Shown here piece by piece: positions 7,086 through 51,640 of a stretch of 64,000 bases of DNA. The DNA comes from Sipunculus nudus (taxonomy: Eukaryota; Annelida; Sipuncula; Golfingiida; Sipunculidae): assembly GCA_026874595.1 (NCBI GenBank), contig CM049317.1, positions 33,943,901 to 34,007,900 of the forward strand, written 5' to 3'. Numbering within the stretch: the stretch's first letter is position 1; the number at the start of each line of letters is the position of its first letter. The translations under genes and the position numbers were made by a program. The notes beneath the pieces were generated by a model. That model was not told where the DNA came from and did no database searches. It saw nothing but the letters and a program-made list of their open reading frames with translations.

Positions 7086-7365
7086 GTTTACGTGTGAATA
7101 CTGTATTACATGACTGATTAATTATTCCATTTTATAACTGTTTAAGACTGATAAAAACAGGATTAAGGAATAACTGATTATATTAACTGTCCGTCTCTCT
7201 GCTTTTTACCCAGAGTTTAAAATAAGGCTTTGATGAACAATGATACGTAAACATCTATAAAGAATGAAACAAAAACTTCATCAAGGTCTCATGTAATTGT
7301 TTCATATATTTACAACCCAGCAACCCTCTGTGATAACTATTTCTGTGACGCTGGTAAAAATAACA

Positions 7366-7439: not shown

Positions 7440-8492
7440 TCAAAACTGAGCGGGATCATAGCCGAAAGCTACGATATCAGGCTCGTACATCACTCCAAGC
7501 TTTTCTATGAGATCCCTCGGAAGATTACTGAAGGCTTCATTTCGCGCCCTAGCTTTTCGGGCGTCAACAATTTTTGCTCTCTCATTTTCTGGATAACGAC
7601 CAAGAAGCCTATTAATCTCCTTTCCACAAAGCAGGCTTATGTTGGACTGTGCGGACAACCAATCTTCTATCTTAGGAAGAAGAGACTCTTTGTCCACCAC
7701 GGGATCAACTAGCCCATTCGTCGCTAAATTGTTAAAATTGACGAGTACAACTTCATGTTTCGTGTGACAATTTATCTTATTTACCAATCGGCACCCGGCG
7801 TCAACCTTTGCCTTTAACCTTGAATCAACGTGGGCCCAGCTGTCATGAATCTCTTTACTGATCCCAAGCTTATGAATCATCACTTTCACGTCCTCGTCAA
7901 AGCTCTCCATTTTTCCTATGAAGTCGTAGGGCATCATACACGGAGAGCAAATATCATGGTACCTAATCCAGTGATAATTAAGCTTATTCTTTTGTCGATG
8001 CATCTCAATTATGTATGTAATAAATTCCTTGAAGGTAACACTAGGAAAACATTTCCGATCAGTGTTTGTTAAATTATTAGTCGTCACTCTTATAATACTG
8101 TGTGCAATGCTTCGAAAGGCACTCATTTTCAATAAAAACTTAGAAGTATAAGCCGACCACAGACGATGATAGGGGTGTCGTACAAACAAGACTTTGAAGT
8201 AGGATTTAATTCTTTTTCTCTTTTCTTCTTCGCTATACTTGCTCAATATTGGCCTGTCTTTAGTTAACAGAAAATCGTTATAGCGGTGGTCTGGGCTTGC
8301 GAGTCTATTCATGTAAACTGAACCTACCTTTGGAATCACACAAGCAATGAGATTTAGGTCATCATTGGTAAATAACCAATGATAAAACGCCTTTGGTCTT
8401 CGTGCAGCTTTTTCTGCAGATGGCTTTTCTTTACAGTAATTTACCAAAACCTCACTTCGTTTTTCCACGGCTTTAATAATTTCATGAAATTT
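7440..8492 (-). CDS. Carbohydrate sulfotransferase (HNK-1ST/CHST family), exon 3, catalytic domain
   Basis: This exon carries the whole Golgi-lumen catalytic domain, which transfers sulfate from PAPS to a sugar on a glycan. The 5'-phosphosulfate binding loop is 'IPKVGSVYMNRL' (residues 137-148 of my model). The 3'-phosphate binding motif is 'FVRHPYHRLWSAYTSKF' (about 187-203). Other family-like blocks are 'FYHWLFTNDDLNLIACVI' and 'CMMPYDFIGKMES'. The exon begins after acceptor 'cattacag' at 8492 in phase 0 and ends at TGA 7440-7442. A GTG at 8468 is an internal valine codon, not a start. With exons 1 and 2 the protein is 434 aa, normal for the family. The acceptor glycan cannot be predicted. 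The usual 'GCT' after PK-V is 'GSV' here. Confidence 0.92.
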   Translation of the reverse strand, partial: KFHEIIKAVEKRSEVLVNYCKEKPSAEKAARRPKAFYHWLFTNDDLNLIACVIPKVGSVYMNRLASPDHRYNDFLLTKDRPILSKYSEEEKRKRIKSYFKVLFVRHPYHRLWSAYTSKFLLKMSAFRSIAHSIIRVTTNNLTNTDRKCFPSVTFKEFITYIIEMHRQKNKLNYHWIRYHDICSPCMMPYDFIGKMESFDEDVKVMIHKLGISKEIHDSWAHVDSRLKAKVDAGCRLVNKINCHTKHEVVLVNFNNLATNGLVDPVVDKESLLPKIEDWLSAQSNISLLCGKEINRLLGRYPENERAKIVDARKARARNEAFSNLPRDLIEKLGVMYEPDIVAFGYDPAQF

Positions 8493-8724
8493 CTGTAATG
8501 ATAAAAACGGTGATGACCGTTAATAAATGGGCACCTATCACTATATATTTCAGATAAATAAGTTTTGTTATGATATTGAAGTATGTAAAACATTTAGAAA
8601 ATACGATGCCAGTAAGTGATCTTTCTAAATCAAATATTTATCCTCGAAGCTTACAGTGGCTATTTGATTAAACCGTCAGAAGAAGATGAAAAGTTCTGCG
8701 TAATAAAAAATTAAGGCTTCCTAC

Positions 8725-8891: not shown

Positions 8892-9100
8892 CTCTGTTTG
8901 AAAATACTAGAAGACCTAGTTAATTATTGCATCACAGATTACCTGATATATGTCTTGATATTGGCTCCTTATGGTTATGCGACGGCAGTGAAATCCAAAA
9001 AATTACATGTAGTATTTTTTAAAAGGTTATGGCCAAAGGATATCCGGTACCATGTGTTATTCTCATTATAATAGGGAGGCGAAAATAGCTTTTTGAGAAA

Positions 9101-9102
<2 letters not shown>

Positions 9103-9155
<53 letters not shown>
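9103..9155. repeat. (TA)n microsatellite in sulfotransferase intron 1
   Basis: About 26 uninterrupted TA repeats just inside the donor of intron 1. Confidence 0.95.
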
Positions 9156-9158
<3 letters not shown>

Positions 9159-9186
9159 TGAGGGAACCACATGTAACGCCACTTAC

Positions 9187-9271
9187 CATAGATTCCATAA
9201 GAAAATATCAAGGTTGTAAGAGTCGCAGAAACGGCAGCCAATATCCAGAAGCATCTTTTGGTCGACTCCAT
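9187..9271 (-). CDS. Carbohydrate sulfotransferase, exon 1, start and signal anchor
   Basis: ATG at 9271 opens MESTKRCFWILAAVSATLTT, continuing LIFSYGIY. This is a short basic cytoplasmic tail followed by one hydrophobic helix, the type II signal anchor expected for a Golgi sulfotransferase. The donor is ATG/GTAAGT at 9187/9186 in phase 1, matching exon 2. Intron 1 contains a (TA)n tract. An upstream TTG-initiated extension is not needed. Confidence 0.85.
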
Positions 9272-11016
9272 TTGAAATATGCTACCTCGTGATAAACAAA
9301 CACTTTGTGATTTTTTTTGTAAACAGATAATCACCAATTATACATAGTTTCTTTAGCCTGTATGAGCCCTATGAAGGGATTCATTTATTCAGGTAAAGCT
9401 CATTCTTGACATTAATTCAAAACGATTTTGTAAAGGCGTTTTCATTTCGTTTGTTACAGACTCGACTGCATTTAGATTTCTTATATATTAGACCTTTTTG
9501 AGAATAAGTGGTATCGACGTCTATTTTGATCTGTTAGTTCATAGCCAAATCAGTTTATTTATTAAGTATATTCTGCCCTTTTTTGTTACTGGCGCCTATA
9601 TTACAATCACTATATTAGATGTTATCATCCCCAGCTACATAACTACGCATCTGCGATTTAACCCTTTAAAAGAGCCTATTTTGATATCAGACGTCTATCA
9701 ACTGAAATAATCTCCTTAGTCTTTCAAAAAATATGCACAACGAATTCACTCCAACCGCACACAATCTGTTCATTTTGTTTACTCCTACGTGTTTATAAAG
9801 TGTGGGGGACGCTGATTGATTTTTTGGTGGCAAGCAGACGAAACAGAGTTTTGCAAAGGGCGTTTAACAATGAGTAATCTTTAAGCTTCGGCAAATATGC
9901 AAACAACCACCTTAGGTTACATGGTTTTCTGTTTGTTAAGATTACTGTGTATGATGACAACTGGTAGATACAAAAATCCTTACATCTGTCACAGATGCGT
10001 TATAAGAAGTTTTCTTTAAAGGAAGTATCTAGGTTATATAGATATATTTACAGAGTAAGCCATAATCAAATACTTTCTATAGACAAGGTAGGTGAATAGA
10101 TGGCTTTAAACACAAAGACAAATAAGGTTAAAACAGACATTACATGGTCTTGCATATAATACATTACCCGTGTCAATTCTACAAAGAGTACTTTTGTAAT
10201 TTTAAATGTAGAAACATAAAACCCCCGATAATCTCATTCATCGCACATTAACTAGTTAATGAAGGAAGAAAAAGACTGTACATTAAAGATGTTATTTTCT
10301 AAAATAAGAGTTGGTTTGACTTGTCATAGTGTTTAGGTTGCAGATTTTGATTGCGCCACACTCAAACATATGTAGTCTATGAGCAAATTAATTTATTGCA
10401 ACTTCAGTACAGAATTGCAGTCCGAACGAAGTTAACACCTCATCCCATTGAACTCCCATGATAAAAACGACGTTTGATATAGGAATATATATATATTTAT
10501 ATATATATATATTATTATTATTATTATTATTATTACAAAATGATATTAAAACTAGGCCCTCTTAAAGATTTCCAGTTAACAAATCTTTTATTCCTATAAC
10601 ACCCAAAAACATGCTCATCTTCTGCAGACAGACTGCATAGTTTGATAATATGATAGGTGTTAAACTTCATTTGTGGCTCATGTTGTGCTCGTGGTCTGTT
10701 TTGTAAGGATCAAATAAACCAACATCAGGGGTTCTGGTACGCTGAATCATACCATAAACTTGTATTAAAACTATTGTTAAATTGATCTGCTTGTATTAGA
10801 AAATGTGATATGTTTTGTCAATGTACCAGAAGATTAAATGTCTGTGGCTGGCGATAGGTGTCGCTAAATCGAAAGGACGAATAAATGGAAGAACCAACAT
10901 ATTTCTTGTACACTGCAATGGCTATTGTGCTGTCTTGGTACAATCTGATTTGTTGCATTTACATGTAAAAGAAGGACGGGAGAGATACAAGATGTGTTGA
11001 TACTTCATTTCAAATC
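9272..11016. other. Upstream flank of the sulfotransferase gene; no further gene seen
   Basis: The promoter of the minus-strand gene should start here, but I see no convincing TATA box close to the ATG. A mixed (TA)/(ATT) microsatellite occupies about 10484-10535. The remaining frames are short and lack splice logic. Confidence 0.45.
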
Positions 11017-29296: not shown

Positions 29297-29458
29297 CTGT
29301 GACACATATTGGTAAGAACTTCCTTTCACAGCTTGCGGAGTTGACAGTTACGTGCAGCAGGTTTTGCCGACGTCTTGATTGACCTTGTATACACAGACCT
29401 TGACCCCGGGGCGTGGACGGACTCACCGGGCTCCCTCCAGACCACATCACATCCGCTC
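29297..29458 (-). CDS. C-type lectin/WSC receptor, exon 5: second half of lectin domain 1
   Basis: The acceptor is 'tttcttcag' and the donor is 'GTCACAG/GTATTA'. Phases are 1 in and 1 out. It encodes residues 204-257, with 'ADVMWSGGSPVSPS', 'GQGLCIQGQS', 'NSASCERKFLPICVT'. The three cysteines and the final P-I-C-V are the C-terminal half of a lectin fold. The matching first half is not the preceding exon but lies beyond the two WSC exons (exon 2). No EPN or WND motif is present. Confidence 0.88.
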
Positions 29459-30565
29459 CTGAAGAAATGTAAAAATAAATAAATATCCCGTCTTTCATCT
29501 AACCGTGGAGTAGTTGTTGATATTGTTGACAATTTAATTTAATCAAATTTTAAAAAATCCTAAAATCGTCTGTTGGCATTTTAAAAATATGTCCTGCCTG
29601 TCTGTCATAGCTTTTCTGCATCTGATGCTACTAAACAAAAGCGATACCAACCAGGGGGCGCGTGGGGGGGGGATAAGTTGTTCAGGAGACCCCCTCCCCT
29701 CCCATTTTTACAGCTGCCTGGACCCCCCCCCCCCCGTTCCCGGGGCTGTGGATCTTTTCTATGATCCTAATTCGTTGACCCATCCCTGCATTAGTCACAT
29801 AACGCAAAGGTAAACATGCAGTTATATTTATCAGATAAAAATGTTAGTTCATTTATTGAAATATGAAAATCTGTAAAACGCTTGTACAAGACGTGATAGC
29901 ATTACGTCTAATTATTTGATTGGTTTGAACCCGCAGAGCTAAATATTAGGGGTATAATTGACCAATGAATCTCCGAGAGGATAATGATAAACCTTCAACA
30001 TCGCTTGTTCACTTTGTGTGACAGGAACGCTCTATATTATTGAACAATTTTCAAAACAGACCGAGCCTAAGTAGGACCGCAGTCGTTTCAGATCACACAC
30101 AGGTCTTTCAACGTGCGATTTCCTTCTGAAAGGCAGGGAAATACCTTGCAACCCCACATATAAATTTCCGTGAGACATTCAGGAAGGAGAGGCCACGTTC
30201 TATTTGAAACTACACAGATAACGCAGGTCATATTTGATGCTAAAGGAATCATTACTAGTCACACCTGTAAGAAGGCTCTTTGCTAAGGTAGAATAAAGTT
30301 ACAGATAAGTATAACCATAAATACACATTATATCAAGATGAACTGATTTTGCGTTTGTTCCTTTGTTCGTTGATCATACTTTTCTGTGATCAAGTATGGC
30401 TAAAAGTATCCTTATTTTTCATTTTTATGTTGACCTGGCTCCTGGTATTTAGGCAAAACATCAAGGCCACGACTTCAGACATGGCAAACTCCGGAGACTG
30501 TTGATTTAAACTATTTTGTGAAGGGAAGTGGCGTAAACTGAGAAATTCAAACATGTTAAACCTAC
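29459..30565 (-). other. Intron 4 of the lectin receptor gene
   Basis: I searched it for another first-half lectin exon and found none. It contains G- and C-homopolymers near 29665 and 29725. Confidence 0.55.
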
Positions 30566-30704
30566 CCTCGTTCACAGAATATACGGCTCTTGAATTATTT
30601 GTCCCACAGTTGTGGAAACCTAAGCAATCCTTTTTACAAGCTGTAGATAAACCAAGTCGTCCAAAAGAATTACCGCAGTAACACTTGAAGGAACCTCGGA
30701 TATC
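30566..30704 (-). CDS. C-type lectin/WSC receptor, exon 4: second half of WSC domain
   Basis: The acceptor is 'tttctttccaag' and the donor is 'AACGAGG/GTAGGT'. Phases are 0 in and 1 out. It encodes residues 158-203: 'GSFKCYCGNSFGRLG', 'STACKKDCLGFHNCGTNN' and 'SRAVYSVNE'. The C-Y-C-G, C-x3-C and C-G-x-n-S-x-x-Y pattern is the second half of a WSC domain, a putative carbohydrate-binding module with eight conserved cysteines. Confidence 0.88.
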
Positions 30705-31185
30705 CTTGGAAAGAAATATTCATAATTCATCGTAAAGTATCTAAAAAATTAAACGGTTTATGCAGGTTGTTTAAGAACAAATACGTTAAGACATATATTT
30801 TATGCTTAAAATATGTTTTTACGATCATTGAACTTACAATTAAATGCCACGAATTCGAAATAAACTATTTAGCCGATCAGATTTATTGAAAGTCACAGAA
30901 TTATTTCAAACATATAGATAAAACAAACGGTATAAACATCAACTATACCATACGCTACTAATGATTCCTTACTGTGCGTCGCCCATTAATAAATGAAAAT
31001 CGGAAACAAAGTATGGTTTTGCCACTTTTACGTGATTTTGCTTTGTTATGAGAAAGTATGAGAGAGGCCGCGTTAAAGAAGAACCTCATTAAATAAATCT
31101 AATTTATGATGGAAAAAAATCAACATATTCTTTTTGGACGACTGAACTTAGCATTTTAAAACACACCATAGATTGAACAGCTTAC
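30705..31185 (-). other. Intron 3, within the WSC domain
   Basis: A phase 0 intron of about 480 bp. Nothing else was recognised. Confidence 0.6.
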
Positions 31186-31349
31186 CTTTAAGGTGTAAAA
31201 TTTGAACTTCTTTTCTAAACAGTCCTGACGACATGAAGCCGCTCCATTTATCCCAATTAATCCAAAGTCAAAGTTCATCTCGGCGTCATTCTCCGGCGAA
31301 GGAGACCGGTAACAGCCTTGGTAGTACAAGGGCACTGATAGTCCATACC
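31186..31349 (-). CDS. C-type lectin/WSC receptor, exon 3: first half of WSC domain
   Basis: The acceptor is 'gtatccctcag' and the donor is 'ACCTTAAAG/GTAAGC'. Phases are 1 in and 0 out. It encodes residues 103-157: 'PLYYQGCYRSPSPEND', a loop, then 'AASCRQDCLEKKFKFYTLK'. Y-x-G-C-Y and the later C-x3-C are the opening of a WSC domain. Together with exon 4 it has all eight cysteines. WSC modules occur in yeast stress sensors, polycystin-1 and many mollusc receptors. Confidence 0.88.
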
Positions 31350-31360
31350 CTGAGGGATAC

Positions 31361-31365
31361 AATAT

Positions 31366-31421
<56 letters not shown>
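31361..31421. repeat. (TA)n microsatellite beside the exon 3 acceptor
   Basis: It begins about 10 bp upstream of the acceptor, so the polypyrimidine region of this splice site is replaced by TATA sequence. This could weaken exon 3 recognition. Confidence 0.9.
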
Positions 31422-31427
<6 letters not shown>

Positions 31428-31634
31428 CTTAAAATACCTGTCTATAGTTTACACCAAATTTTATTCACAGCGTGGCGATCTGTACTTGGATATTGATATT
31501 GTATTGTAATTTTAACCGACAAACAACCCGTTTGTCTTGATGTATATTATTATCCCATGGACAAGCAGATCTTGTTATATATTTTATTTATTTAATTTTA
31601 ATTCTTTCCTTGACACACAATAAAAAATATTCAT

Positions 31635-31684
<50 letters not shown>

Positions 31685-31688
<4 letters not shown>

Positions 31689-32076
31689 ACGGGGTGACAA
31701 AAAAAGGATCGAACTGTCACGCTAGCTGAAGCTTGCTATGCTAGCGAAGCGGTTGGTAGGCCGGACTTGCGCGCTACCGACCCGGGTTCGATTCCCGGAT
31801 CGGTTCAAGAATTTTTCCCCTCAACAATTTGCCTTCGTAACAAAATGGGGGCTCGTATAACGTGACAGTTAACTTTGTCGCTCAGGGAATAAGCTCACCA
31901 AGGTGTGACTCCTTGGATAATTAGTTTTGTTCTGATAGCAGAGCGCTTTTAAGAGGGGGTGTTACGGGGTGACATAAAAACGGACCGAAGCGGTTGGTAC
32001 GCCGGACTTGTGCGCCACCAACATGGTTCGAAACCGGGATCGACCCAATGTTTTCCCCTGAACAACTTGTCTTCGT

Positions 32077-32080
<4 letters not shown>
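31685..32080. mobile_element. Miniature LTR element (TRIM-like) with tRNA-like LTRs, copy A
   Basis: Two direct terminal repeats, 31685-31842 and 31960-32080, begin TGTTACGGGGTGAC and end CGTAACA, with TG...CA ends. Right after the first is TGGGGGCTCGT (31846-31856), the start of the well-known tRNA-Pro primer binding site. Right before the second is AAGAGGGGG (31951-31959), a polypurine tract. The interior is only 117 bp and non-coding. The LTR contains a pol III A box (TAGCGAAGCGG, 31742-31752) and B box (GGTTCGATTCC, 31785-31795) at tRNA spacing, with a perfect T-arm. LTR2 has lost about 35 bp including part of the A box. The element sits inside a (TA)n tract in intron 2 of the lectin gene. 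Confidence 0.85.

Positions 32081-32133
<53 letters not shown>
32081..32133. repeat. (TA)n microsatellite, right flank of TRIM copy A
   Basis: It continues the TA tract at 31640-31684 that the element interrupts. Confidence 0.9.
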
Positions 32134-32135
<2 letters not shown>

Positions 32136-32246
32136 CATACATGGGGAGATTAATTGATGTATATGGCGATTACGATTACTTTAAAAGTAAATGATAACAT
32201 GAGTAAATGAGTATATATATGGTATAGCATGCAGTATTTCCTATAC

Positions 32247-32450
32247 TTGTGCCCCAGTTCCAGTAACGAGGTCCGGTTCTCCCGGACGTCCAGGCCTCGC
32301 CAACTCGCCCCTGTTGGAGGAGCTCCATGACGTTTTCGAAAGGCCCAGTACTATTATCGGCCACCAGATGGCCTCCATTTCCCTCACAATAATGTTTTGC
32401 CTCGTTCCATGTCTTCTCTTCATTACACAGATAGAAGCACTTCTTTACAC
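32247..32450 (-). CDS. C-type lectin/WSC receptor, exon 2: first half of lectin domain 1
   Basis: The acceptor is 'ttttttttgcacag' and the donor is 'GGCACAA/GTATAG'. Phases are 1 in and 1 out. It encodes residues 35-102: 'VKKCFYLCNEEKTWNEAKHY' and 'CEGNGGHLVADNS' with the opening cysteine of the fold, then 'AWTSGRTGPRYWNWGT', which stops at exactly the same point as exon 6 (W-x-W plus 1-2 residues). The next exon downstream is WSC exon 3. The second half of this lectin domain is exon 5. Splicing exon 2 directly to exon 5 also keeps the frame. Confidence 0.9.
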
Positions 32451-32819: not shown

Positions 32820-35800
32820 TTGCTGGAAGCTTTGGCAGCCTGTAGTACCCTACAAAAAATTGGGAGGGGATAAAATTTATAGAAGCATCGCATTAATGTT
32901 AAGGTTGCCGGCAGGGGGAGTGAAATGAGAGCGGCCAGCCACTGGGGCCCCATGAATCGCACACGCAAATAGCAGCTATTTGCGACCCAAAAAATTTAGG
33001 AGGGGGTAAAATTTCTGGTAGCATCGCATTGAGAGTTAAGATTGCCGCCAGGGGGAGTGGACATGAGTGCGGGCAGACAGAGGGGCCCCCATGAATCGCA
33101 CGCGCAAATAGCAGCTATTTGCTTCCCTAAAAAATTGAGGAGGGGGTAAAATTTCTGGTAGCATCGCATTGAGAGTTAAGATTGCCACCAGAGGGAGTGG
33201 ACAAGAGACAGGACTGCCACAGAGGCCCTATGAATAGCACGCGCAAATAGCAGCTATTTGCTACCCTAAAAATTAGGAGGAAGTAAAATAATAGTAGCAG
33301 CGCATGGAGTGTTAAGACTGCCACCAGGGGGAGTGGAGATCTCAAAGCCTGCCACAGCGGCCCAATGAATTGCATGCGCAAATAGCAGCTATTTGCTACC
33401 ATAAAAGTTGTGAAGACTGCCGCCAGGGGGAGAGGAGATCTCAGCGGCCTGGCAGAGGGGTCCCCACGAGTCGCAAGCGCAAATAGCAGCTATTTGCTAC
33501 CACAAAATATGTCAAGACTGCCACCAGGGGGTGTGGACATGAGAGTGTGACAGACAGAGGGGCCCCCATGAGTCGCACGCGCAAATAGCAGCTATTTGCT
33601 ACCCTAAAATATTAGGAGGGGGTAAAATTTATAGTAGCATTGCATTGAGCGTTTTGACTGCCGCCAGGGGGAGTGGACATGAGTGCGGGCAGGCAGAGGG
33701 GCCCCCATGAATCGCACGCGCAAATAGCTGCTATTTGCTACCATAAAAAATTTAGGAGGGGTTCAATATATAGTAGCATCGCATTGAGTGTTAAGACTGC
33801 CGCCAGGGGGAGTGTACATGAGAGCGGGCAGACAGAGGGGCCCCAAGAATCGCAAGCGCAAATAGCAGCTATTTGCGACCCTAAAAAAATTAGGAGGGGT
33901 AAATTTCTGGTAGCATCGCATTGAGAGTTAAGATTGCCGCCAGGGGGAGTGGACTAGAGACAGGACTACCACAGGGGCCCCATGAATCGCACGCGCAAAT
34001 AGCAGCTATTTGCTACCCTAAAAAATTTAGGAGGGGTTAAATATATAGTAGCATCGCATTGAGTGTTAAGACTGCCGCCAGGGGGAGTGTACATGAGATC
34101 GGGCAGACAGAGGGGCCCCATGAATCGCAAGCGCAAATAGCAGCTATTTGCGACCCTAAAAAATTTAGGAGGGTGTGAATTCTGGGAGCATCGCATTAAG
34201 AGTTAAGGTTGCCGCCAGGGGGAGTGGACCTCAGTGCCGCCAGGGGGAGTGGACTTGAGACAGGACTACCACAGGGGCCCCATGAATCGCACGCGCAAAT
34301 AGCAGCTATTTGCTACCTTAAAAAAATTAGGAGGGGTTAAATATGTAGTAGCATCGCATTGAGTGTTAAGACTGCCGCCAGGGGGAGTGTACATGAAAGC
34401 GGGCAGACAGAAGGGCCCCATAAATCGCACGCGCAAATAGCAGCTATTTGCTACCCTAAAAAATTTAGGAGGGGGTAAAATTTCTGGTAGCATCGCATTG
34501 AGAGTTAAGATTGCCGCCAGAGGGAGTGGACAAGAGACAGGACTGCCACAGGGGCCCTATGAATCGCACGCGCAAAAAGCAGCTATTTGCTACCCTAAAA
34601 ATTTAGGAGGGGGTAAAATTTCTGGTAGCATCGCATTGAGAGTTAAGATTGCCACCAGGAGGAGTGGAGATCTCAAAGCCTGCCACAGGGGCCCAAATGA
34701 ATCGCACGCGCAAATAGCAGCTATTTGCTACCATAAAAGTTGTTAAGACAGCCGCCAGGGAGAGAGGAGATCTCAGCGGCCTGGCAGAGGGGTCACCACG
34801 AGTCGCAAGCGCAAATAGCAGTTATTTGCTACCATAAAATATGTCAAGACTGCCACCAGGGGGAGTGGACATGAGAGTGGACAGACAGAGGGGCCCCCAT
34901 GAGTCGCACGCGCAAATAGCAGCTATTTGCTACCCTAAAAAATTAGAAGGGGGTAAAATTTATAGTAGCATTGCATTGAGCGTTATGACTGCCGCCAGGG
35001 GGAGTGGACATGAGACAGGACTGCCACAGGGGCCCCATGAATCGCACGCGCAAATAGCTGCTATTTGCTACCCTAAAAAAATTAGGAGGGGTTAAATATA
35101 TAGTAACATCGCATTGAGTGTTAAGACTGCCGCCAGGGGGAGTGTACATGAGAGCAGGCAGACAGAGGCGCCCCCATGAATCGCACGCGCAAATAGCAGC
35201 TATTTGCTACCCTAAAAAATTTAAGACTGGGTAAAATTTCTGGTAGCATCGCATTGAGAGTTAAGATTGCCGCCAGAGGGAGTGGACAAGAGACAGGACT
35301 GCCACAGGGGCCCTATGAATCGCACGCGCAAATAGCAGCTATTTGCTACCCTAAAAATTTAGGAGGGGGTAAAATTTTTGGTAGCATCGCATTGAGAGTT
35401 AAGATTGCCACCAGGGGGAGTGGAGATCTCAAAGCCTGCCACAGGGGCCAAAATGAATCGCACGCGCAAAAAGCAGCTATTTGCTACCATAAAAGTTGTG
35501 AAGACTGCCGCCAGGGGGAGAGGAGATCTCAGCGGCCTGGCAGAGGGGTCACCACGAGTCGCAAGCGCAAATAGCAGTTATTTGCTACCATAAAATATGT
35601 CAAGACTGCCACCAGGGGGAGTGGACATAAGAGTGGACAGACAGAGGGGCCCCCATGAGTCGCACGCGCAAATAGCAGCTATTTGCTACCCTAAAAAATT
35701 AGGAGGGGGTAAAATTTATAGTAGCATTGCATTGAGCGTTATGACTGCCGCCAGGGGGAGTGGACATGAGACAGGACTGCCACAGGGGCCCCATGAATCG

Positions 35801-38190
35801 CAAGCGCAAATAGCAGCTATTTGCTACCTCAAAAGTTGCCAAGACTGCCGCCAGGGGGAGTGGATATGACAGCGGCCAGACAGAGAGGCCCCCATGAGTC
35901 GCAAGCGCAAATAGCAGCTATTTGCTACCTTAAAAGTTGTCAAGACTGCCGCCAGGGGGAGTGGACACAGAGCGGGTTGCCAGAGGGGGCCCAACGAATC
36001 GCACGCGCAAATAGCAGCTATTTGCTACCTTAACAGTTGCCAAGACTGCCGCCAGGGAGAGTGGACAGAGAGCGGCCAGACAGAGAGGCCCCCATGAGTC
36101 GCAAGCGCAAATAGCAGCTATTTGCTACCTTAAAAGTTGTCAAGACTGCTGCCAGGGGGAGTGGACACAAAGCCGGCTGCCAGAGGGGCCCCCATGAATC
36201 GCACGCGCAAATAGCAGCTATTTGCTACCTTAAAAGTTGCCAAGACTGCCGCCAGGGGGAGTTGATATGAGAGCGGCCAGCGAAGAGGCCCCCATGAATC
36301 GCAAGCGCAAATAGCAGCTATTTGCTACCTTAAAAGTTGCCAAGACTGCCGCCAGGGGGAGTGGATATGACAGCGGCCAGAGGGGGCCCCGTGAATCGCA
36401 CGCGCAAATAGCAGCTATTTTCTACCTTAACAGTTGCCAAGACTGCCGCCAGGGGGAGTGGAAATGAGAACAGCCTGACAGAGAGGCCCCCATGAGTCGC
36501 AAGCGCAAATAGCAGCTATTTGCTACCATAAAAAGTGTCAAGACTGCCACCAGGAGGAGTGGACACAGAGCGGGCGGCCAGAGTAGGCCCCATGAATCGC
36601 AAGCGCAAATAGCAGCTATTTGCTACCTTAAAAGGTGCCAAGACTGCCGCCAGGGGGAGTGGATATGAGAGCGGCCAGACAGAGAGGCCCCCATGAGTCG
36701 CAAGCGCAAATAGCAGCTATTTGCTACTTTAAAAGTTGTCAAGACTGCCGCCAGGGGGAGTGGACAAAGAGCGTGCTGCCAGAGGGGCCCCCATGAATCG
36801 CAAGCGCAAATAGCAGCTATTTGCTACCTTAAAAGTTGCCAAGACTGCCGCCAGGGGGAGTTGATATGAGAGCGGCCAGCGAAGAGGCCCCCATGAATCG
36901 CAAGCGCAAATAGCAGCTATTTGCTACCTTAAAAGTTGCCAAGACTGCCGCCAGGGGGAGTGGATATGACAGCGGCCAGAGGGGGCCCCGTGAATCGCAC
37001 GCGCAAATAGCAGCTATTTGCTACCTTAACAGTTGCCAAGACTGCCGCCAGGGGGAGTGGAAATGAGAACAGCCTGACAGGGAGGCCCCCATGAGTCGCC
37101 AGCGCAAATAGCAGCTATTTGCTACCATAAAAAGTGTCAAGACTGCCGCCAGGAGGAGTGGACACAGAGCGGGCGGCCAGAGTAGGCCCCATGAATCGCA
37201 AGCGCAAATAGCAGCTATTTGCTACCTTAAAAGGTGCCAAGACTGCTGCCAGGGGGAGTGGATATGAGAGCGGCCAGACAGAGAGGCCCCATGAGTCGCA
37301 AGCGCAAATAGCAGCTATTTGCTACTTTAAAAGTTGTCAAGACTGCCGCCAGGTGGAGTGGACACAGAGCCGGCTGCCAGAGGGGCCCCCATGAATCGCA
37401 AGCGCAAATAGCAGCTATTTGCTACCTTAAAAGTTGCCAAGACTGCCGCCAGGGGGAGTTGATATGAGAGCGGCCAGCGAAGAGGCCCCCATGAATCGCA
37501 AGCGCAAATAGCAGCTTTTTGCTACCTTAAAAGTTGCCAAGACTGCCGCCAGGGGGAGTGGATATGACAGCGGCCAGACAGAGAGGCCCCCATGAGTCGC
37601 AAGCGCAAATAGCAGCTATTTGCTACCTTAAAAGTTGTCAAGACTGCAGCCAGGTGGAGTGGACACAGAGGGGGTTGCCAGAGGGGTCCCCATGAATCGC
37701 ACGCGCAAATAGCAGCTATTTGCTACCTTAAAAGCTGCCAAGACTGCCGCCAGGGGGAGTTGATATGAGAGCGGCCAGCGAAGAGGCCCCCATGAATCGC
37801 AAGCGCAAATAGCAGCTATTTGCTACCTTAAAAGTTGCCAAGACTGCCGCCAGGTGGAGTGGATATGACATCGGCTAGAGGGGGCCCCATGAATCGCACG
37901 CGCAAATAGCAGCTATTTGCTACCTTAACAGTTGCCAAGACTGCCGCCAGGGGGAGTGGAAATGAGAACAGCCTGACAGAGAGGCCCCCATGAGTCGCCA
38001 GCGCAAATAGCAGCTATTTGCTACCATAAAAAGTGTCAAGACTGCCGCCAGGAGGAGTGGACACAGAGCGGGCGGCCAGAGGAGGCCCCATGAATCGCAA
38101 GCGCAAATAGCAGCTATTTGCTACCTTAAAAGTTGCCAAGACTGCCGCCAGGGGGAGTAGATATGACAGCGGCCAGACAGAGAACTCCTT
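32820..38190. repeat. Satellite array A, about 45 units of about 137 bp and about 100 bp
   Basis: Every unit carries CAAATAGCAGCTATTTG, an 8-bp inverted repeat around one base, followed by 'ctacc'. Every unit also has 'ctgccgccagggggagtgga' or a close variant. Units in the first part (to about 35.8 kb) are mostly about 137 bp and contain 'taggagggggtaaaatt' and 'gtagcatcgcattgag'. The later part has about 100-bp units joined by 'ttaaaagttgccaaga'. Higher-order periods are visible: a block at about 34.5 kb recurs 756 bp later, and 'gttgatatgagagcggccag' recurs at 597, 596 and 304 bp. Reading frames through it are chance. If exon 1 of the lectin gene is right, the array is intronic. Confidence 0.95.
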
Positions 38191-40640: not shown

Positions 40641-42717
40641 CAAGTAAGTGTTTGTCAGTTTTAATATATGCTATATCCGGTATACGGGTTACCCTTACCC
40701 TTCGGGCATGACATACTCCAGTAAGTGTTTGTGACTATTAATATATGCTATATCCGGGATACGGGTTACCCTAACCCTTCAGGCTTGAAATGCTCCAGTA
40801 AGTGTTTGTCATTATTGATACGTGCTATACCCGGGATACGGGTTTTATGCTATATCGGGGATACGGGTTACCCTGTAAGTGTTTGTCACTATCAATATAT
40901 GCTATATCCGGGATAGGGGTAACCCTAACCCTTCGGGCATGAAATACTCCAGTAAGTCTTTGTCACTATTGATATATGCTATTTGCCGGGTTACGGGTTA
41001 CCCAAACCCTTTGGGAATAAAATACTCTTGTAAGTGTTTGTCACTATTGATATATGCTATATCCGGGATACGGGTTACCCAAACCCTTCGGGAATAATAT
41101 ACTCCTGTAAGTGTTTGTTCTATTAATATATGCCATATCCGGGATACGGGTTACCTTAACCCTCCGGGCATGAAATACTCAAGTAAATGTTTGTCATTAT
41201 TAATACGTGCTATATCCGGGATACGGGTCACCCTAACCCTTCGGGCATGAAATACTCCAGTAATTGTTTGTCATTATTGATACGTGCTATACCCGGGATA
41301 CGGGTTACGCCAACCCTTCGGGCATGAAATACTCCAGTAAGTGTTTGTCACTATTATGTATGCTATATCAGGGATACGGGTAACCCTGACCATTCGGGCA
41401 TGAAATCCTCCTGTAAGTATTTGTCACTATTAATATAAGCTATATCCAGGATACGGGTTAACGTAACCCATCGGGTATGAAATGCTCCAGTAAGTGTTTG
41501 TGACTATTCATATATGCTATATGCAGTAAACGAGTCCACGTTACCCAGCGGGTATGTAATACTCCAGTTAGTGTTTGTGACTATTCATATATGCTATATC
41601 CGTGACACAGGTTACCGTAACCCACGCGGCGTGAAAAGCTCGAATGTTTGTCGCTATTAATATATGCTGTATCCGGGATACGGGTTACACTAAATCTCGG
41701 GCAAGAAATACTCCTGTAAGTGTTTGTCACTATTAATATATGCTATATCCGGGATACGGGTTACACTAAATCTCGGGCAAGAAATACTCCTGTAAGTGTT
41801 TGTCACTATTAATATATGCTAAATCCAGGATACGGGTTACCCTAACCTTCGGGCATGAAATACTCCTGTAAGTGTTTGTCATTATCAATATATGCTATAT
41901 CCGGGATAGGGGTTACCCTAACCCTTCGGGCATGAAATACTCCAGTAAGTGTTTGTCACTATTGATATATGCTATATCCGGGTTACGGGTTACCCAAACC
42001 CTTTGGGAATAAAATACTCTTGTAAGTGTTTGTCATTATTAATATATGCTATATCCGGGTTACGGGTTACCCAAACCCTTCGGGCATGAAATACTCCAGT
42101 AATTGTTTGTCATTATTGATACATGCTATACCCGGGATACGGGTTTTATGCTATATCGGGGATACGGGTTACCCTAACGCTTCGGGCAGGAATTACCCCA
42201 GTAGATGTTTGCCATTATTAATATATGCTATATCCGGGATACGGGTTACCCTAACCCTTCGGGCATGAAATAATCCAGTCAGTGCTCCTCACTTGTGATA
42301 TATGCTATATCCGGGATATAGGTTACTCAAACCCTTCTGCCATTAAATACCCCAGTAAGTGTTGTTCACTATTAAAATGTGCTGAATCTAGGATATGGGT
42401 TACCTGAACCCTTTATGCATGAATACTGGAGCGTTTGTCACTATTAATATATGCTAAATGCAAGATACGGGTTAACCTCCGCCTTCAAACTTGAATTACT
42501 CGAATAAGTCTTTTTAACTAATAATAAATGGTATATCTGGGATACGGTTTACCCTAACCCTTCAAATTTTAAATCACCAATCAGACTATACTCCAGAAAG
42601 TATTAATATAAGGTATATCTGGGATACGGGTTACACTAACCCTTCAGGTGTGAATACTCCAGTAAGTCTTTGTCACTATTAATATATGCTACATCCAGGC
42701 TACAGGATACCTTAATA

Positions 42718-42866
42718 TTTTACTATAACATGTAGAGACATAGATGGAACGGACAACAGCAATGCAATGAAGTAAGAGAAGTGAACAGCAAATGCATCAC
42801 ACATGAATCAGTGACTTTATATTATAAATATAAACATATAGAATTTCTGCGAGATATAAATTAATG
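42718..42866. repeat. Non-satellite insert in array B, copy 1
   Basis: About 148 bp ('tttactataacatgtagaga' to 'gcgagatataaattaa') unlike the 76-bp unit. It was duplicated together with its neighbours at 44698-44849. Confidence 0.85.
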
Positions 42867-44697
42867 TCACTATTAATATATGCTATATCCAGGATACGGG
42901 TTACCCTAAACCCTTCGAGCATGAAATACTCCCGTAAGTGTTTGTCACTATCAATATATGCTATATCCGGGATAGGGGTTACCCTAACCCTTCGGGCATG
43001 AAATACTACACTAAGTGTTTGTCACTATTGATATATGCTATATCCGGGATACGGGTTACCCAAACCCTTCGGGAATAATATACTCCTGTAAGTGTTTGTT
43101 CTATTAATATATGCTATATCCGGGATACGGGTTACCTTAACCCTTCGGGCATGAAATACTCAAGTAAGTGTTTGTCAGTTTTAATATAGGCTATATCCGG
43201 TATACGGGTTACCCTAACCCTTCGGACATGAAATACTCCAGTAAGTGTTTGTCACTATTATGTATGCTATATCAGGGATACGGGTAACCCTGACCCTTCG
43301 GGCATGAAATCCTCCTGTAAGTATTTGTCACTATTAATATAAGCTATATCCAGGATACGGGTTAACGTAACCCATCGGGTATGAAATGCTCCAGTAAGTG
43401 TTTGTGACTATTCATATATGCTATATGCAGTAAACGAGTCTACGTTACCCAGCGGGTATGTAATACTCCAGTTAGTGTTTGTGACTATTCATATATGCTA
43501 TATCCGTGACACAGGTCACCGTAACCCACGCGGCGTGAAAAGCTCGAATGTTTGTCGCTATTAATATATGCTGTATCCGGGATACGGGTTACACTAAATC
43601 TCGGGCAAGAAATACTCCTGTAAGTGTTTGTCACTATTAATATATGCTATATCCGGGATACGGGTTACACTAAATCTCGGGCAAGAAATACTCCTGTAAG
43701 TGTTTGTCACTATTAATATATGCTATATCCAGTATACGGGTTACCCTAACCCTTCGGGCATGAAATACTCCTGTAAGTGTTTGTCATTATCAATATATGC
43801 TATATCCGGGATAGGGGTTACCCAAACCCTTCGGGCATGAAATACTCCAGGAAGTGTTTGTCACTATTGATATATGCTATATCCGGGTTACGGGTTACCC
43901 AAACCCTTTGGGAATAAAATACTCTTGTAAGTGTTTGTCATTATTAATATATGCTATATCCGGGTTACGGGTTACCCAAACCCTTCGGGCATGGAATACT
44001 CCAGTAATTGTTTGTCATTATTGATACGCGCTATACCCGGGATACGGGTTTTATGCTATATCGGGGATACGGGTTACCCTAACGCTTCGGGCATGAATTA
44101 CCCCAGTAGATGTTTGCCATTATTAATATGTGCTATATCCGGGATACGGGTTACCCTAACCCTTCGGGCATGAAATAATCCAGTAAGTTGTTGTCCCTAT
44201 TGATATTTGCTATATCCGGGATACGGGTTACCCTAACCCTACGGGCATGAAATAATCCAGTCAGTGCTCCTCACTTGTGATATATGCTATATCCGGGATA
44301 TAGGTTACTCAAACCCTTCTGCCATTAAATACCCCAGTAAGTGTTGTTCACTATTAAAATGTGCTGAATCTAGGATATGGGTTACCTGAACCCTTTATGC
44401 ATGAATACTGGAGCGTTTGTCACTATTAATATATGCTAAATGCAAGATACGGGTTAACCTCCGCCTTCAAACTTGAATTACTCGAATAAGTCTTTTTAAC
44501 TAATAATAAATGGTATATCTGGGATACGGTTTACCCTAACCCTTCAAATTTTAAATCACCAATCAGACTATACTCCAGAAAGTATTAATATAAGGTATAT
44601 CTGGGATACGGGTTACACTAACCCTTCAGGTGTGAATACTCCAGTAAGTCTTTGTCACTATTAATATATGCTACATCCAGGCTACAGGATACCTTAA

Positions 44698-44849
44698 TAT
44701 TTTACTATAACATGTAGAGACATAGATGGAACGGACAACAGCAATGCAATGAAGTAAGAGAAGTGAACAGCAAATGCATCACACATGAATCAGTGACTTT
44801 ATATTATAAATATAAACATATAGAATTTCTGCGAGATATAAATTAATGT
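44698..44849. repeat. Non-satellite insert in array B, copy 2
   Basis: Almost identical to 42718-42866 and about 1.98 kb away. The offset is one unit larger than in the preceding part of the block because the second block gained one 76-bp unit near 44165-44240. Confidence 0.85.
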
Positions 44850-47800
44850 CACTATTAATATATGCTATATCCAGGATACGGGTTACCCTAAACCCTTCGA
44901 GCATGAAATACTCCCGTAAGTGTTTGTCACTATCAATATATGCTATATCAGGGATAGGGGTTACCCTAACCCTTCGGGCATGAAATACTACACTAAGTGT
45001 TTGTCACTATTGATATATGCTATATCCGGGATACGGGTTACCCAAACCCTTCGGGAATAATATACTCCTGTAAGTGTTTGTTCTATTAATATATGCTATA
45101 TCCGGGATACGGGTTACCTTAACCCTCCGGGCATGAAATACTCAAGTAAATGTTTGTCATTATTAATACGTGCTATATCCGGGATACGGGTCACCGTAAC
45201 CCTTCGGGCAAGAAATACTCCAGTAATTGTTTGTCATTATTGATACGTGCTATACCCGGGATACGGGTTACCCTAACCCTTCGGGCATGAAATAATCAAG
45301 TAATTTTTTGTCCCTATTGATTTATACTATATCGGGGATACGGGTTACCCTAACGCTTCGGGCATGAAATACCCCAGTATCGATGTTTGCCATTATTAAT
45401 ATGTGCTATATCCGGGATACGGGTTACCCTAACCCTTCGGGCATGAAATAATCCACTAGGTTGTTGTCCATATTGATATGTGCTATATCCGGGATACTTG
45501 TTACCCTAACCCTTCGGGCATGAAATACTCCTGTGTGTGTCACTATTAATATATGCTATATCCAGGATACGGGTTACCCTAACCCTTCAGGCATGAAATA
45601 CTCCCGTAAGGTTTTGTCACTATCAATATATGTTATATCCGGGATAGGGTTTACCCTAACCCTTCGGGCATGAAATACTCCAGTAAGTGTTTGTCACTAT
45701 AGATATATGCTATATCCGGTATACGGGTTACCCCAACCCTTCGGGAATAAAATACTCCAGCAAGTGTTTGTAAATATTCATATATGCTTTATCCGGGATA
45801 CGGGTTTCCTTAACCCTTCGGGCATGATATACTCCAATAGATGTTTGTCATTATTAATATGTGCTATATCCGGGTTACGGGTTACCTGAACCCTTTGGGA
45901 ATAAAATACTCTTGTAAGAGTTTGTCATTATTAATATATGCTGTATCCGGGATGCGGGTTACCCTAACCCTTCGGGCATGAAATACTCCAGTAAGTGTGT
46001 GTCATTATTAATATATGCTATATCCAGGATACGGGTTACCCTAACCCTTCGGGCATGAAATACTCCAGTAATTGTTTGTCATTATTGATACGTGCTATAC
46101 ACGGGATACGGGTTTTATGCTATATCGGGGATACGGGTTACCCTAACGCTTCGGGCATGAATTACCCCAGTAGATGTTTGCCATTATTAATATGTGCTAT
46201 ATCCGGGATACGGGTTACCCTAACCCTTCGGGCATGAAATAATCAAGAAATTTTTTGTCCCTATTGATTTATACTATATCGGGGATACGGGTTACCCTAA
46301 CGCTTCGGGCAAGAAATACCCCAGTATCGATGTTTGCCATTATTAATATGTGCTATATCCGGGATACGGGTTACCCTAACCCTTCGGGCATAAAATAATC
46401 CACTAGGTTGTTGTCCATATTGATATGTGCTATATCCGGGATACGGGTTACCCTAACCCTTCGGCATGAAATAATCCAGTAAGTTGTTGTCCCTATTGAT
46501 ATATGCTGTATACGTGATGCGAGTTACCCTAACCCTTCGGGCATGAAATACTCCTGTGTGTGTCACTATTAATATATACTATATCCAGGATACGGGTTAC
46601 CCTAACCCTTCAGGCATGAAATACTCCGTAAGGTTTTGTCACTATCAATATATGTTATATCCGGGATAGGGGTTACCCTAACCCTTCCTGCATGAAATAC
46701 TCCAGTAAGTGTTTGTCACTATAGATATATGCTATATCCGGTATACGGGGTACCCTAACGCTCCGGGCATTAGATACCCCAGTAGATGTTTGTCATTATT
46801 AATATGTGCTATAACCGGGATACGGGTAACCCTAACCCTTCGGGCATGAAATACTCCAGTAAGTGTTTGTGACTATTCATATATGCAATATCCGGGATGC
46901 GGGTTACCCTAACCCTTCGGGCATGAAAAACTCCTGTAAGTGTGTGTCACTGTTAATATATATCCTATATCCAGGATAGGGGTTAGCCTAACCTTTCGGG
47001 CATGAAATACTCCCGTAAGTGTTTGTCACTATCAATATATGCTATATCCGGGAAATGTTTGTCATTATTAATATATGCTATATCATGGGTACGGGTTACC
47101 TGAACCCTTCGGGCATGAAATACTCCTGTAAATGTTTGTCACTATCAAAATATAATATATCCGGGATACGGGTTACCCTAACCCTTCGGGCATGAAATAC
47201 TCCAGTAAGTGTTTGTCACTATTGATATATGCTATATCCGGGATACGGGTTACCCTAACCCTTCGGGCAAGAGATAGTCAAGTAATTTTTTGTCCCTATT
47301 GATATATGCTATATCGGGGATACGGGGTACCCTAACGCTCCGGACATTAGATACCCCAGTAGATGTTTGTCATTATTAATATGTGCTATATCCGGGATCC
47401 GGGTAACCCTAACCATTCGGGCATGAAGTACCCCAGTAATTGTTTGCCATTATTAATATGTGCTATACCCTAACCCTTCGAGCATGAAATACTCCAGTAA
47501 GTGTTTGTGACTATTCATATATGCTATATCTGGGATACGGGTTACCCTAACCCTTCGGGCATGAAATACTCCAGTAAGTGTTTGTGACTATTCATATATG
47601 CTATATCCGGGATACGGGCTACCCTAACCCTCGGGCATGAAATAATCCAGTACATTGTTGTCCCTATTGATATAAGCTGTATCCGGGATGCGGGTTACCC
47701 TAACCCTTCGGGCATGAAAAACTCCTGTAAGTGTGTGTCACTGTTAATATATACTATATCCAGGATAGGGGTTAGCCTAACCTTTCGGGCATGAAATACT

Positions 47801-50337
47801 CCCGTAAGTGTTTGTCACTATCGATATATGCTATATCCGGGAAATGTTTGTCATTATTAATATATGCTATATCATGGGTACGGGTTACCTGAACCCTTCG
47901 GGCATGAAATGCTCCAGTAAGTGTTTGTCACTATTAATATATGCTATGTCCAGGATACGGGTTACCCTAACCCTTCGGGCATGAAGTACTCCAGTAATTG
48001 TTAGTCATTATTAAAATGTGCTATATCCGGGAAACGGGTTACCCTAACCCTTCGGCATGAAATGATCCAGTAAGTTGTTGTCCCTATTGATATATGCTGT
48101 ATACGTGATGCGGGTTACCCTAACCCTTCGGGCATGAAATACTCCTGTGTGTGTCACTATTAATATATGCTATATCCAGGATACGGGTTACCCTAACCCT
48201 TCAGGCATGAAATACTCCCGTAAGGTTTTGTCACTATCAATATATGTTATATCCGGGATAGGGGTTACCCTAACCCTTCCTGCGTGAAATACTCCAGTAA
48301 GTGTTTGTCACTATAGATATATGCTATATCCGGTATACGGGGTACCCTAACGCTCCGGGCATTAGATACCCCAGTAGATGTTTGTCATTATTAATATGTG
48401 CTATATCCGGGATACGGGTAACCCTAACCCTTCGGGCATGAAGTACCCCAGTAATTGTTTGCCATTATTAATATGAGCTATACCCTAACCCTTCGAGCAT
48501 GAAAGACTCCAGTAAGTGTTTGTGACTATTCATATATGCTATATCCGGGATACGGGTTATCCTAACCCTTCGGGCATGAAATACTCCAGTAAGTGTTTGT
48601 GACTATTCATATATGCAATATCCGGGATGCGGGTTACCCTAACCCTTCGGGCATGAAAAACTCCTGTAAGTGTGTGTCACTGTTAATATATACTATATCC
48701 AGGATAGGGGTTAGCCTAACCTTTCGGGCATGAAATACTCCCGTAAGTGTTTGTCACTATCAATATATGCTATATCCGGGAAATGTTTGTCATTATTAAT
48801 ATATGCTATATCATGGGTACGGGTTACCTGAACCCTTCGGGCATGAAATACTCCTGTAAGTGTTTGTCACTATCAAAATATAATATATCCGGGATACGGG
48901 TTACCCTAACCCTTCGGGCATGAAATACTCCAGTATGTGTTTGTCACTATTGATATATGCTATATCCGGGATACGGGTTACCCTAACCCTTCGGGCAAGA
49001 GATAGTCAAGTAATTTTTTGTCCCTATTGATATATGCTATATCGGGGATACGGGGTACCCTAACGCTCCGGACATTAGATACCCCAGTAGATGTTTGTCA
49101 TTATTAATATGTGCTATATCCGGGATACGGGTAACCCTAACCGTTCGGGCATGAAGTACCCCAGTAATTGTTTGCCATTATTAATATGTGCTATACCCTA
49201 ACCCTTCGAGCATGAAATACTCCAGTAAGTGTTTGTGACTATTCATATATGCTATATCTGGGATACGGGTTACCCTAACCCTTCGGGCATGAAATACTCC
49301 AGTAAGTGTTTGTGACTATTCATATATGCTATATCCGGGATACGGGCTACCCTAACCCTCGGGCATGAAATAATCCAGTAAATTGTTGTCCCTATTGATA
49401 TAAGCTGTATCCGGGATGCGGGTAACCCTAACCCTTCGGGCATGAAAAACTCCTGTAAGTGTGTGTCACTGTTAATATATACTATATCCAGGATAGGGGT
49501 TAGCCTAACCTTTCGGGCATGAAATACTCCCGTAAGTGTTTGTCACTATCGATATATGCTATATCCGGGAAATGTTTGTCATTATTAATATATGCTATAT
49601 CATGGGTACGGGTTACCTGAACCCTTCGGGCATGAAATACTCCAGTAAGTGTTTGTCACTATTAATATATGCTATGTCCAGGATACGAGTTACCCTAACC
49701 CTTCGGGCATGAAGTACTCCAGTAATTGTTAGTCATTATTAAAATGTGCTATATCCGGGATACGGGTTACACTAAACCTTCGGGCATGAAATACTCCAGT
49801 AAGTGTTAGTGACTATTCATATATATTATATCCGGGATACGGGTTACCCTAACCCTTCGGGCATGAAGTACTCCAGTAATTGTTAGTCATTATTAAAATG
49901 TGCTATATCCGGGATACGGGTTACACTAAACCTTCGGGCATGAAATACTCCAGTAAGTGTTAGTGACTATTCATATATATTATATCCGGGATACGGGTTA
50001 CCCTAACCCTTTGGGCATGAATTACTCCACTAAGTGTTTGTCACTGTTCGGGGGTACAAGTCCCTAACCCTTCTGGCATGAAACACCCCAGTAAGTCTGT
50101 GTCACTAATAATATGTGCTTTATCCGGGATACGGGGCATTATAAACAGTCATAATATTACGACTCGTTGACATTACATAGCTTAATATATGGTGTGTACT
50201 CAGTATATTATTATGCAATCCTTTCAACTTAAATAAATTTCCTACACACATGCTTCTATACAATGTTTGAGCGGGCATCTTGTTAAATGAAGAATAAATT
50301 ACGCCATATACATATGAACGGTTAGTAGAGTTTTTCG

Positions 50338-51640
50338 GTGAAATGCGCACTGCGATCGCAGCTTAATATGACCAAAGGCATTTGCTACCGCGCATATCTG
50401 TTTGCTACTTTGCGACTGTTAATTGCTACCGCGCATATTGCTTTGAGTGTTCCTGTCCGAGCGACCTCTGGCAGCAAAGACTTGCACTACGTCAACAGTA
50501 GCAGATTTTGCGATCGCAAATTCTTAGTCCCCATTGCGGTCGCAGTGGACAGTAACTTGCGACCGCGCAGGTCTTTTTGCTACCGCGCACATTGCGCATT
50601 GCGATCGCAGCTTAATATGACCAAAGGCATTTGCTACCGCGCATATCTGTTTGCTACTTTGCGACTGTTAATTGCTACCGCGCATATTGCTTTGAGTGTT
50701 CCTGTCCGAGCGACCTCTGGCAGCAAAGACTTGCACTACGTTTTGCTATCGCGCACATTGCGCATTGCGCTCGCAGCTTAATATGACCAAAGGCATTTGC
50801 TACCGCGCATATCTGTTTGCTACTTTGCGACTATTAATTGCTACCGCGCATATTGCTTTGAGTGTTCCTGTCCGAGCGACCTCTGGCAGCAAAGACTTGC
50901 ACTACGTTTTGCTATCGCGCACATTGCGCATTGCGCTCGCAGCTTAATATGACCAAAGGCATTTGCTACCGCGCATATCTGTTTGCTACTTTGCGACTAT
51001 TAATTGCTACCGCGCATATTGCTTTGAGTGTTCCTGTCCGAGCGACATCTGCCAGCAAAGACTTGCACTACGTCAACAGTAGCAGATTTTGCGATCGCAA
51101 ATTCATAGTCCCCCTGGATAGCAAGGGACAGTAACTTGCGACCGCGCAGGTCTTTTTGCTACCGCGCACATTGCGCATTGCGATCGCAGCTTAATATGAC
51201 AAAAGGCATTTGCTACCGGGCATATCTGTTTGCTACTTTGCGACTGTTAATTGCTACCGTGCATATTGCTTTGAGTGTTCCTGTCCGAACGACCTCTGGC
51301 AGCAAAGACTTGCACTACGTCAACAGTCGCAGATTTTGCGATCGCAAATTCATAGTTCCCATTGGTAGCAATGACAGCCACTTGCTACCGCGCAGGTCTG
51401 ATTTGCTACCGCGCACTTTGCGCTACGAGCCGGTCTGTGCCTGATGGTAGCAAGTCCGGTGGCTGTTCAGTGCGCGATGTGGCAAGCTATGCACAAGAGT
51501 AGCAAATGCTACCGTGCGACTGCCATTTGCTACCGCGCACTTTGCGCTGAATAGCCGCTGAGAGCAGAATGGTAGCAAATTGAGTGGAAGCTGAGTGCGC
51601 GTTGTGCCGGGCTATGCGCAATGGTAGCAAAGAATCCCAG
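50338..51640. repeat. Satellite array C, units of 166 bp and about 249 bp
   Basis: The marker 'gcttaatatgac' recurs at 50361, 50610, 50776, 50942 and 51189, giving spacings 249, 166, 166 and 247. The long form has an extra 83-bp segment, so lengths are two and three times 83. It is rich in GCGATCGC, 'accgcgca' and 'tttgctacc'. After 51400 the units decay and 'ggtagcaaa' appears on the opposite strand. Open frames here are by-products of the repeat. Confidence 0.92.

Follow-up and report, generated by a model that had tools for sequence, protein, structure and literature searches.

We report here on a gene on the minus strand of a 64,000-nucleotide stretch of the Sipunculus nudus genome (GenBank assembly GCA_026874595.1, contig CM049317.1, 33.94-34.01 Mb), which will be called the window; the contig is abbreviated C12. 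C-type lectin-like domains (CTLDs) are among the commonest animal recognition folds, and they are usually viewed as units strung in series. In the present gene, the two exons of a WSC domain lie between the exons for the two halves of a CTLD, an arrangement that a first-pass annotation of the window had read as one domain nested in another. We will show that this reading is strongly supported, since further loci of this genome have their exons in the same order and with the same phases.

The gene and its exons

From the first lectin exon to the tail, the exon phases are, in order, 1-1, 1-0, 0-1, 1-1, 1-1, 1-1, 1-2 and 2-stop. Exon 32450-32247 holds the first half of CTLD 1, and matches Pfam Lectin_C on its own with 22.0 bits, against a cut-off of 22.6, over profile positions 2-46. 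It is followed by WSC exon 1 (31349-31186, phase 1-0, cysteines 1-3) and WSC exon 2 (30704-30566, phase 0-1, cysteines 4-8), assigned by a Pfam WSC match across both and by their phases, and then by the second half of CTLD 1 (29458-29297, phase 1-1, three cysteines). All four have ag|..|gt borders and open frames. When the exon borders were re-derived, the four junction coordinates of the first-pass annotation proved to be exact, and its phases of 1/1-0/0-1/1 and the read-through frame were confirmed as well. CTLD 2 is encoded by exons 28706-28464 and 28276-28127, both of phase 1-1, which when joined match Lectin_C with 32.1 bits over positions 2-107 of 107.

The remaining exons encode a membrane anchor and a tail. 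The transmembrane exon (26403-26289, phase 1-2) is recognized by its hydrophobic stretch IYITVIIGSVLGSIICLLSVVIVTLCVL and its splice borders, and its phase matches the phase 2 entry of the tail exon (24984-24777), which contains the stop codon and tyrosines in YYESL, YEIP and YTRL. We take the tyrosines of YESL, YEIP and YTRL to resemble an immunoreceptor tyrosine-based activation motif, but their spacing is longer than the consensus. A possible alternative last exon lies after the membrane exon at 26018-25955 (minus strand); it would give a short tail without tyrosine motifs, and its acceptor is weak (77th percentile).

The first exon is uncertain. A strict screen for it gave no candidate, while a looser one gave eight at five start codons among 225 ATG frames. 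One of these eight, a candidate signal peptide exon at 59237-59135 (minus strand), lies 26.7 kb upstream with satellites in between. With this exon and the tail at 24984-24777, the protein lengths given earlier, 495 amino acids with the WSC exons and 394 without, are reproduced; the uncertainty of exon 1 carries over to both. The product would thus be a two-CTLD membrane receptor, of type I provided that exon 1 is correct.

Two lectin halves and a WSC domain

We now turn to the two outer exons. As previously noted, the first-half exon ends at the same point as the CTLD 2 exon 28706-28464 (WNWGT| and WAWHQ|, respectively). The second-half exon 29458-29297 alone has no Pfam match. When the two halves are joined without the WSC exons, however, Lectin_C (PF00059) is matched with 29.0-29.7 bits over positions 2-106 of 107, above the curated cut-off of 22.6 bits. 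As a control, the first half was joined to shuffled versions of the second half, which gave 21.5-24.3 bits with the match ending at positions 59-71 in all nine shuffles. Since the joined match runs to the end of the profile and none of the nine shuffles does so, the outer exons are complementary halves of one CTLD.

The cysteines agree with this assignment. The first half contains C1, and the second half C2, C3 and C4, with C3-x7-C4; in CTLDs, the disulfides pair C1 with C4 and C2 with C3. Across the join, C1 and C2 are 68 residues apart, to be compared with 70 in the intact CTLD 2. These features suggest that the halves fold together into one CTLD. The calcium and sugar motifs of CTLDs, described in PMC6468738 as E/Q-P-D/N and W-N-D, are absent from the second half 29458-29297, which has neither Q-P-N nor a W-N-D type motif, and CTLD 1 of the window has thus probably lost calcium-type sugar binding. 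One group of venom CTLDs is also without the sugar motif according to the same paper (PMC6468738), and the motif is therefore not fold-defining.

In the WSC exons, all eight cysteines are present, as had been stated, with the C-x3-C, C-x-C and C-x3-C pattern. Their spacing is 26-3-18-1-12-3-5. Computed from the cysteine numbers in the respective papers, the spacing is 24-3-15-1-16-3-7 in Kremen1 (PMC5014086) and 21-3-15-1-14-3-7 in yeast Wsc1 (PMC9024836), such that the tight spacings agree with both, whereas the last one differs (5 vs 7). The Pfam WSC profile (PF01822) is matched by the window gene over positions 1-81 of 82 (26.4 bits, E 8.1e-6); in four relatives, the two WSC exons when joined score 50-56 bits. 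Carbohydrate binding by this domain is putative, from its family membership. A sequence search of the PDB with the WSC returned just two porin chains, at E 0.26-0.27.

Search for a hidden lectin half

Nesting would be mimicked if the introns beside the WSC exons concealed further lectin exons, and the first-pass annotation had pointed to a first-half lectin exon between 30566 and 29458 as the finding that would speak against it. No such exon was found, either by an exon screen or by half-domain profiles. The screen asked for open phase 1-1 exons of 100-330 nucleotides with [CT]AG and GT[AG] borders; it gave none in intron 32246-31350, and three candidates in intron 30565-29459, all without lectin features. 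The profiles, which were trained on the halves of the window and of a second locus, L021 (see below), found nothing in the two window introns beside the WSC exons and noise alone in the corresponding two introns of L021.

The profiles do recover halves on which they were not trained (in L014, L017, L018, L020, L026, L035, L031, L032 and L064). Second halves are sometimes weak by profile (E 0.011-0.028), and a diverged second half could escape. A comparison of exons with introns at the DNA level was also tried as a test for hidden halves, but was rejected as insensitive, since known half pairs did not clearly stand out. Because that comparison is blind to diverged halves, the question rests on the half-domain profiles.

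The intron between the first half and the WSC exons is 897 bp long, and more than half of it is taken up by an AT microsatellite and by one copy of a repeat whose other copy lies at 58342-58777. The copy in this intron, at 31681-32081, is 78% like the other one, and a stretch of the repeat resembles part of a tRNA-derived short element. Scans of the window for tRNAs and against Rfam gave no match.

Related loci in the same genome

Relatives were found stepwise. A search with Pfam WSC gave at least 17 places in the genome; the unit of one of them, L021, was then used as query (at least 137 matches, with the best 150 of 797 candidates scored), followed by the unit at C12:24.86 Mb (at least 60 matches, with the best 150 of 181 candidates scored). 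When 10 kb were read around each of the 17 places, one proved to be nested (L021), in four the first half of a lectin domain comes after the WSC, and in the other 12 the stretch read contained no lectin half with E < 0.1.

Including the window, at least eight nested loci lie on C12. The order first half-WSC-WSC on one strand is found in all eight, partly by match coordinates, and the second half comes next after WSC exon 2 in seven of them. In addition to the window gene (33.97 Mb, minus strand), whose exons were read, all unit exons were read at 59.30 Mb (L021), and four exons, with phases as in the window, at 24.86 Mb (L057-L060). At this last locus, no further lectin half falls in the introns among the matches listed, the introns themselves being unread.

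The other five loci have a first-half match upstream, on the strand of their WSC exons (37.58, 37.62, 77.02, 77.05 and 34.08 Mb). In the locus at 37.58 Mb (L035), the exons read are WSC 1, WSC 2, the second half and the first half of the next CTLD; the first half of the unit itself is placed by coordinates (E 1.1e-6). At 37.61 Mb (L031), WSC 1, WSC 2 and the second half were read, and match coordinates put the first half 12 kb upstream (E 0.276). For 77.05 Mb (L032), WSC 2 and the second half were read, while WSC 1 and the first half are known by coordinates (first half E 4.8e-4). At 77.02 Mb (L061-L063), WSC 1, WSC 2 and the second half were read and the first half is placed by coordinates (E 0.29); here only ca 274 bp separate the matches of WSC exon 2 and the second half, which is too short for an extra first-half exon plus introns.

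The eighth locus, at 34.08 Mb (L064), has the orientation of the window gene and lies ca 0.1 Mb from it. Its first half was read save for the start and scores 44.3 bits, with FYYCPCEKTW resembling FYLCNEEKTW of the window; WSC 1 and 2 are placed by coordinates. The 0.7 kb between its first half and the WSC exon holds nothing convincingly lectin-like.

The locus L021 allows the most detailed comparison. Its exons are the first half at 2174-2398, the WSC exons at 4875-5035 and 7044-7182, the second half at 8489-8629 and the next first half at 9079-9315, and these five share the phases of the window. The second half of its next CTLD is found at 573-701 of L026 (by profile, 32.3 bits). Each of the six lectin and WSC exons of the window gene (half, WSC, WSC, half, half, half) thus has its counterpart, in the same order, in L021 and L026, and the identity over the nested unit and the next half is 21%. 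This conserved order bears on a further possibility, that mRNAs omit lectin halves or re-pair them, for example 32450-32247 with 28276-28127. That pairing is the best of the four (47.2 bits) and is in frame, but with all six exons conserved in the same order, we consider such transcripts very unlikely.

With the WSC removed, L021 matches Lectin_C with 53.2 bits (positions 2-106 of 107) and the 24.86 Mb gene with 51.2 bits (3-107 of 107), while their WSC domains score 50 bits each. In the three complete genes (window, L021, 24.86 Mb), the C1-C2 distance across the cut is 68, 66 and 67 residues, C3 and C4 are separated by seven residues in each, and every lectin half has three cysteines. A Q-P-N/D motif is present in five of the seven second halves (L021, L035, L031, L032 and 77.02 Mb); the 24.86 Mb gene has Q-P-S and the window none. 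All 21 exons tabulated have open frames and the end phase that was expected, three more exons read alike, and the WSC exons hold 3 + 5 cysteines wherever they were read.

These data can be used to assess a different history, in which a CTLD-WSC-CTLD ancestor lost its inner halves, and the outer halves are now vestigial or unfolded linkers on either side of a WSC that still functions. Genes in which a lectin first half comes after the WSC exons do exist in the same genome, namely L014, L017, L018 and L020 on contig C8. Half-exons are also gained and lost: at 27528-27485 (minus strand), the intron preceding the membrane exon contains a degenerate copy of the last part of exon 28276-28127, and none of 500 Markov shuffles reaches the score of this copy. 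However, vestigial halves would be unlikely to keep the Q-P-N/D motif in five of seven cases, and the three cysteines per half and the C1-C2 span of 66-68 residues are held in all three complete genes. We therefore consider it very unlikely that the halves have no joint fold. Deletion may, on the other hand, have been the route by which a protein with a joint fold came about.

Another alternative follows from the phases. Both WSC exons might be spliced in or out together, yielding the nested receptor of 495 amino acids and a plain two-CTLD receptor of 394. Both forms stay in frame, and the WSC exons (164 and 139 nucleotides) cannot be skipped singly but can be skipped jointly (303 nucleotides). 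Furthermore, the donor before the WSC pair, that of exon 32450-32247, is weak (65th percentile of GTs), and none of the other lectin and WSC acceptors is as weak as that of WSC exon 2. The earlier statement that the frame survives the joint skip is thus true, but it is unspecific: of the 64 possible subsets of the six exons, 32 likewise stay in frame, because every exon from 32450 to 28127 save the single WSC exons is of phase 1-1. Nor does the fold score single out this skip, as the first half reaches 47.2 bits with 28276-28127 vs 29.7 with its own second half, and other skips look equally good. The WSC exons are, moreover, intact in every relative read, as would be the case for constitutive exons, although alternative exons can be conserved too. 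Taken together, this makes cassette splicing unlikely.

The relationship between the loci was examined with a tree of WSC domains (13 rows, from six of the eight nested loci and seven of the 17 places from the Pfam search). The six nested rows fall on one side of a branch, and none of 500 label shuffles was equally clustered. The genes on C8 are a possible source of the nested WSC module.

Assessment of the nested reading

Taking all results into account, we assign a probability of about 0.75 to the reading that the WSC is nested in CTLD 1 as lectin half-WSC-lectin half, with the two halves closing into one fold, that the gene is one of at least eight such loci, and that the arrangement arose by entry of a phase-1 WSC module. 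Judged by its exons, nesting is then a gene-family design, wider than the single gene first noted, and it seems to be an old one. That diverged loci share order, phase, cysteine sets and joint lectin length could hardly be explained otherwise than by selection keeping the nested protein.

It is important to point out what weighs on the other side. The second lectin half of the window is strongly diverged, and its WSC score of 26.4 bits is slightly below the curated cut-off of 27.8 bits. Three of the five upstream first halves are weak (E 0.276, 0.29 and 0.41). Only that of the 34.08 Mb locus was read, the other four being placed by coordinates, and this locus is also the one whose second half was not seen. 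At E 0.01, Pfam Lectin_C finds the WSC plus second-half piece of L032 but misses those of L035 and L031, whose second halves are recognized by their phases, cysteines and Q-P-N/D motif and by a half-domain profile, with 16.5 and 10.4 bits, respectively. The tree has a support of 36/54, long branches and a short alignment, so that a single origin is not firmly supported. No relative outside this genome was found, in collections that seem poor in animal proteins: the protein collection gave no homologue at E 1e-3 among 1435 candidates and none at E 10 among 234, and NCBIfam gave no match. Finally, the nested receptor is predicted from genomic sequence.

Origin and comparison with known systems

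The agreement in order and phases across diverged loci makes insertion of a phase 1-1 WSC module the best account of the nested design. In this scenario, a WSC module flanked by phase-1 introns would have entered a phase-1 intron within a CTLD gene, so that the WSC is spliced in between the strand bearing the WIGL-type motif and the long loop of the first CTLD, and the nested unit would subsequently have multiplied by duplication. In fish, CTLD genes with an intron after the WIGL motif have been described (PMC514892). The WSC enters at the point where the β2-β3 long loop begins, and this loop is the variable site of the CTLD fold (PMC6468738). The sheet order of WSC is β1-β5-β3-β4-β2 (PMC5014086, PMC9024836), with the first and last strands adjacent. 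Since these strands are neighbours, the ends of the WSC should be close, and the domain could hang in the loop without tearing the lectin. The WSC would then enlarge or replace the ligand-binding face of the long loop, and the protein would serve as a recognition receptor at the cell surface. One may speculate further that the phase-1 CTLD intron acts as a socket, with WSC plugged into the ligand loop, the family multiplied on one chromosome, and splicing leaving the plug in or out to give a lectin with or without a second module; we consider this unlikely as a whole.

By sequence, the best PDB matches are MRC2 and PLA2R of the mannose receptor family. Members of this family are, like the present gene product, membrane receptors with CTLDs in series; none of them is known to have a domain within a CTLD. 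The C8 genes combine the same two domain types, but in succession. WSC is also carried by SpREJ6, 7 and 10 and by human PKD1, the last of which has a C-type lectin domain as well; in the part of PMC1934368 concerned, WSC and lectin are given as separate domains and nesting is unmentioned. Kremen1 likewise has a WSC module in the ectodomain of an animal type I receptor, but there as Kringle-WSC-CUB in series and without a CTLD, as far as the corresponding part of PMC5014086 describes it. In snake venom CTLD heterodimers and selectins, variation also occurs in the β2-β3 long loop, but there the loop is extended, swapped or provided with two added strands, without an inserted domain in the account available from PMC6468738. 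Searches of the open literature, which leaves out most subscription journals, turned up no CTLD with an inserted WSC.

Other features of the window

Large tandem arrays occupy the presumed first intron at 32854-38183, 40643-50045 and 50575-51631, with units near 100-140, 77 and 125-250 bp. An open frame of 359 amino acids at 8519-7443 (minus strand) matches Sulfotransfer_2 with E 6.9e-36 and perhaps belongs to a carbohydrate sulfotransferase gene. Two retroelement copies with an integrase C-terminal domain are located at 57320-58293 and 62779-63997, and are 91-96% alike in their aligned parts.

Conclusions

If the nested reading is true, working nested receptors can arise when exons are shuffled into an intron that lies within a domain. 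The loci on C12 would then provide eight diverged natural examples, in one genome, for studying two recognition surfaces in one fold.

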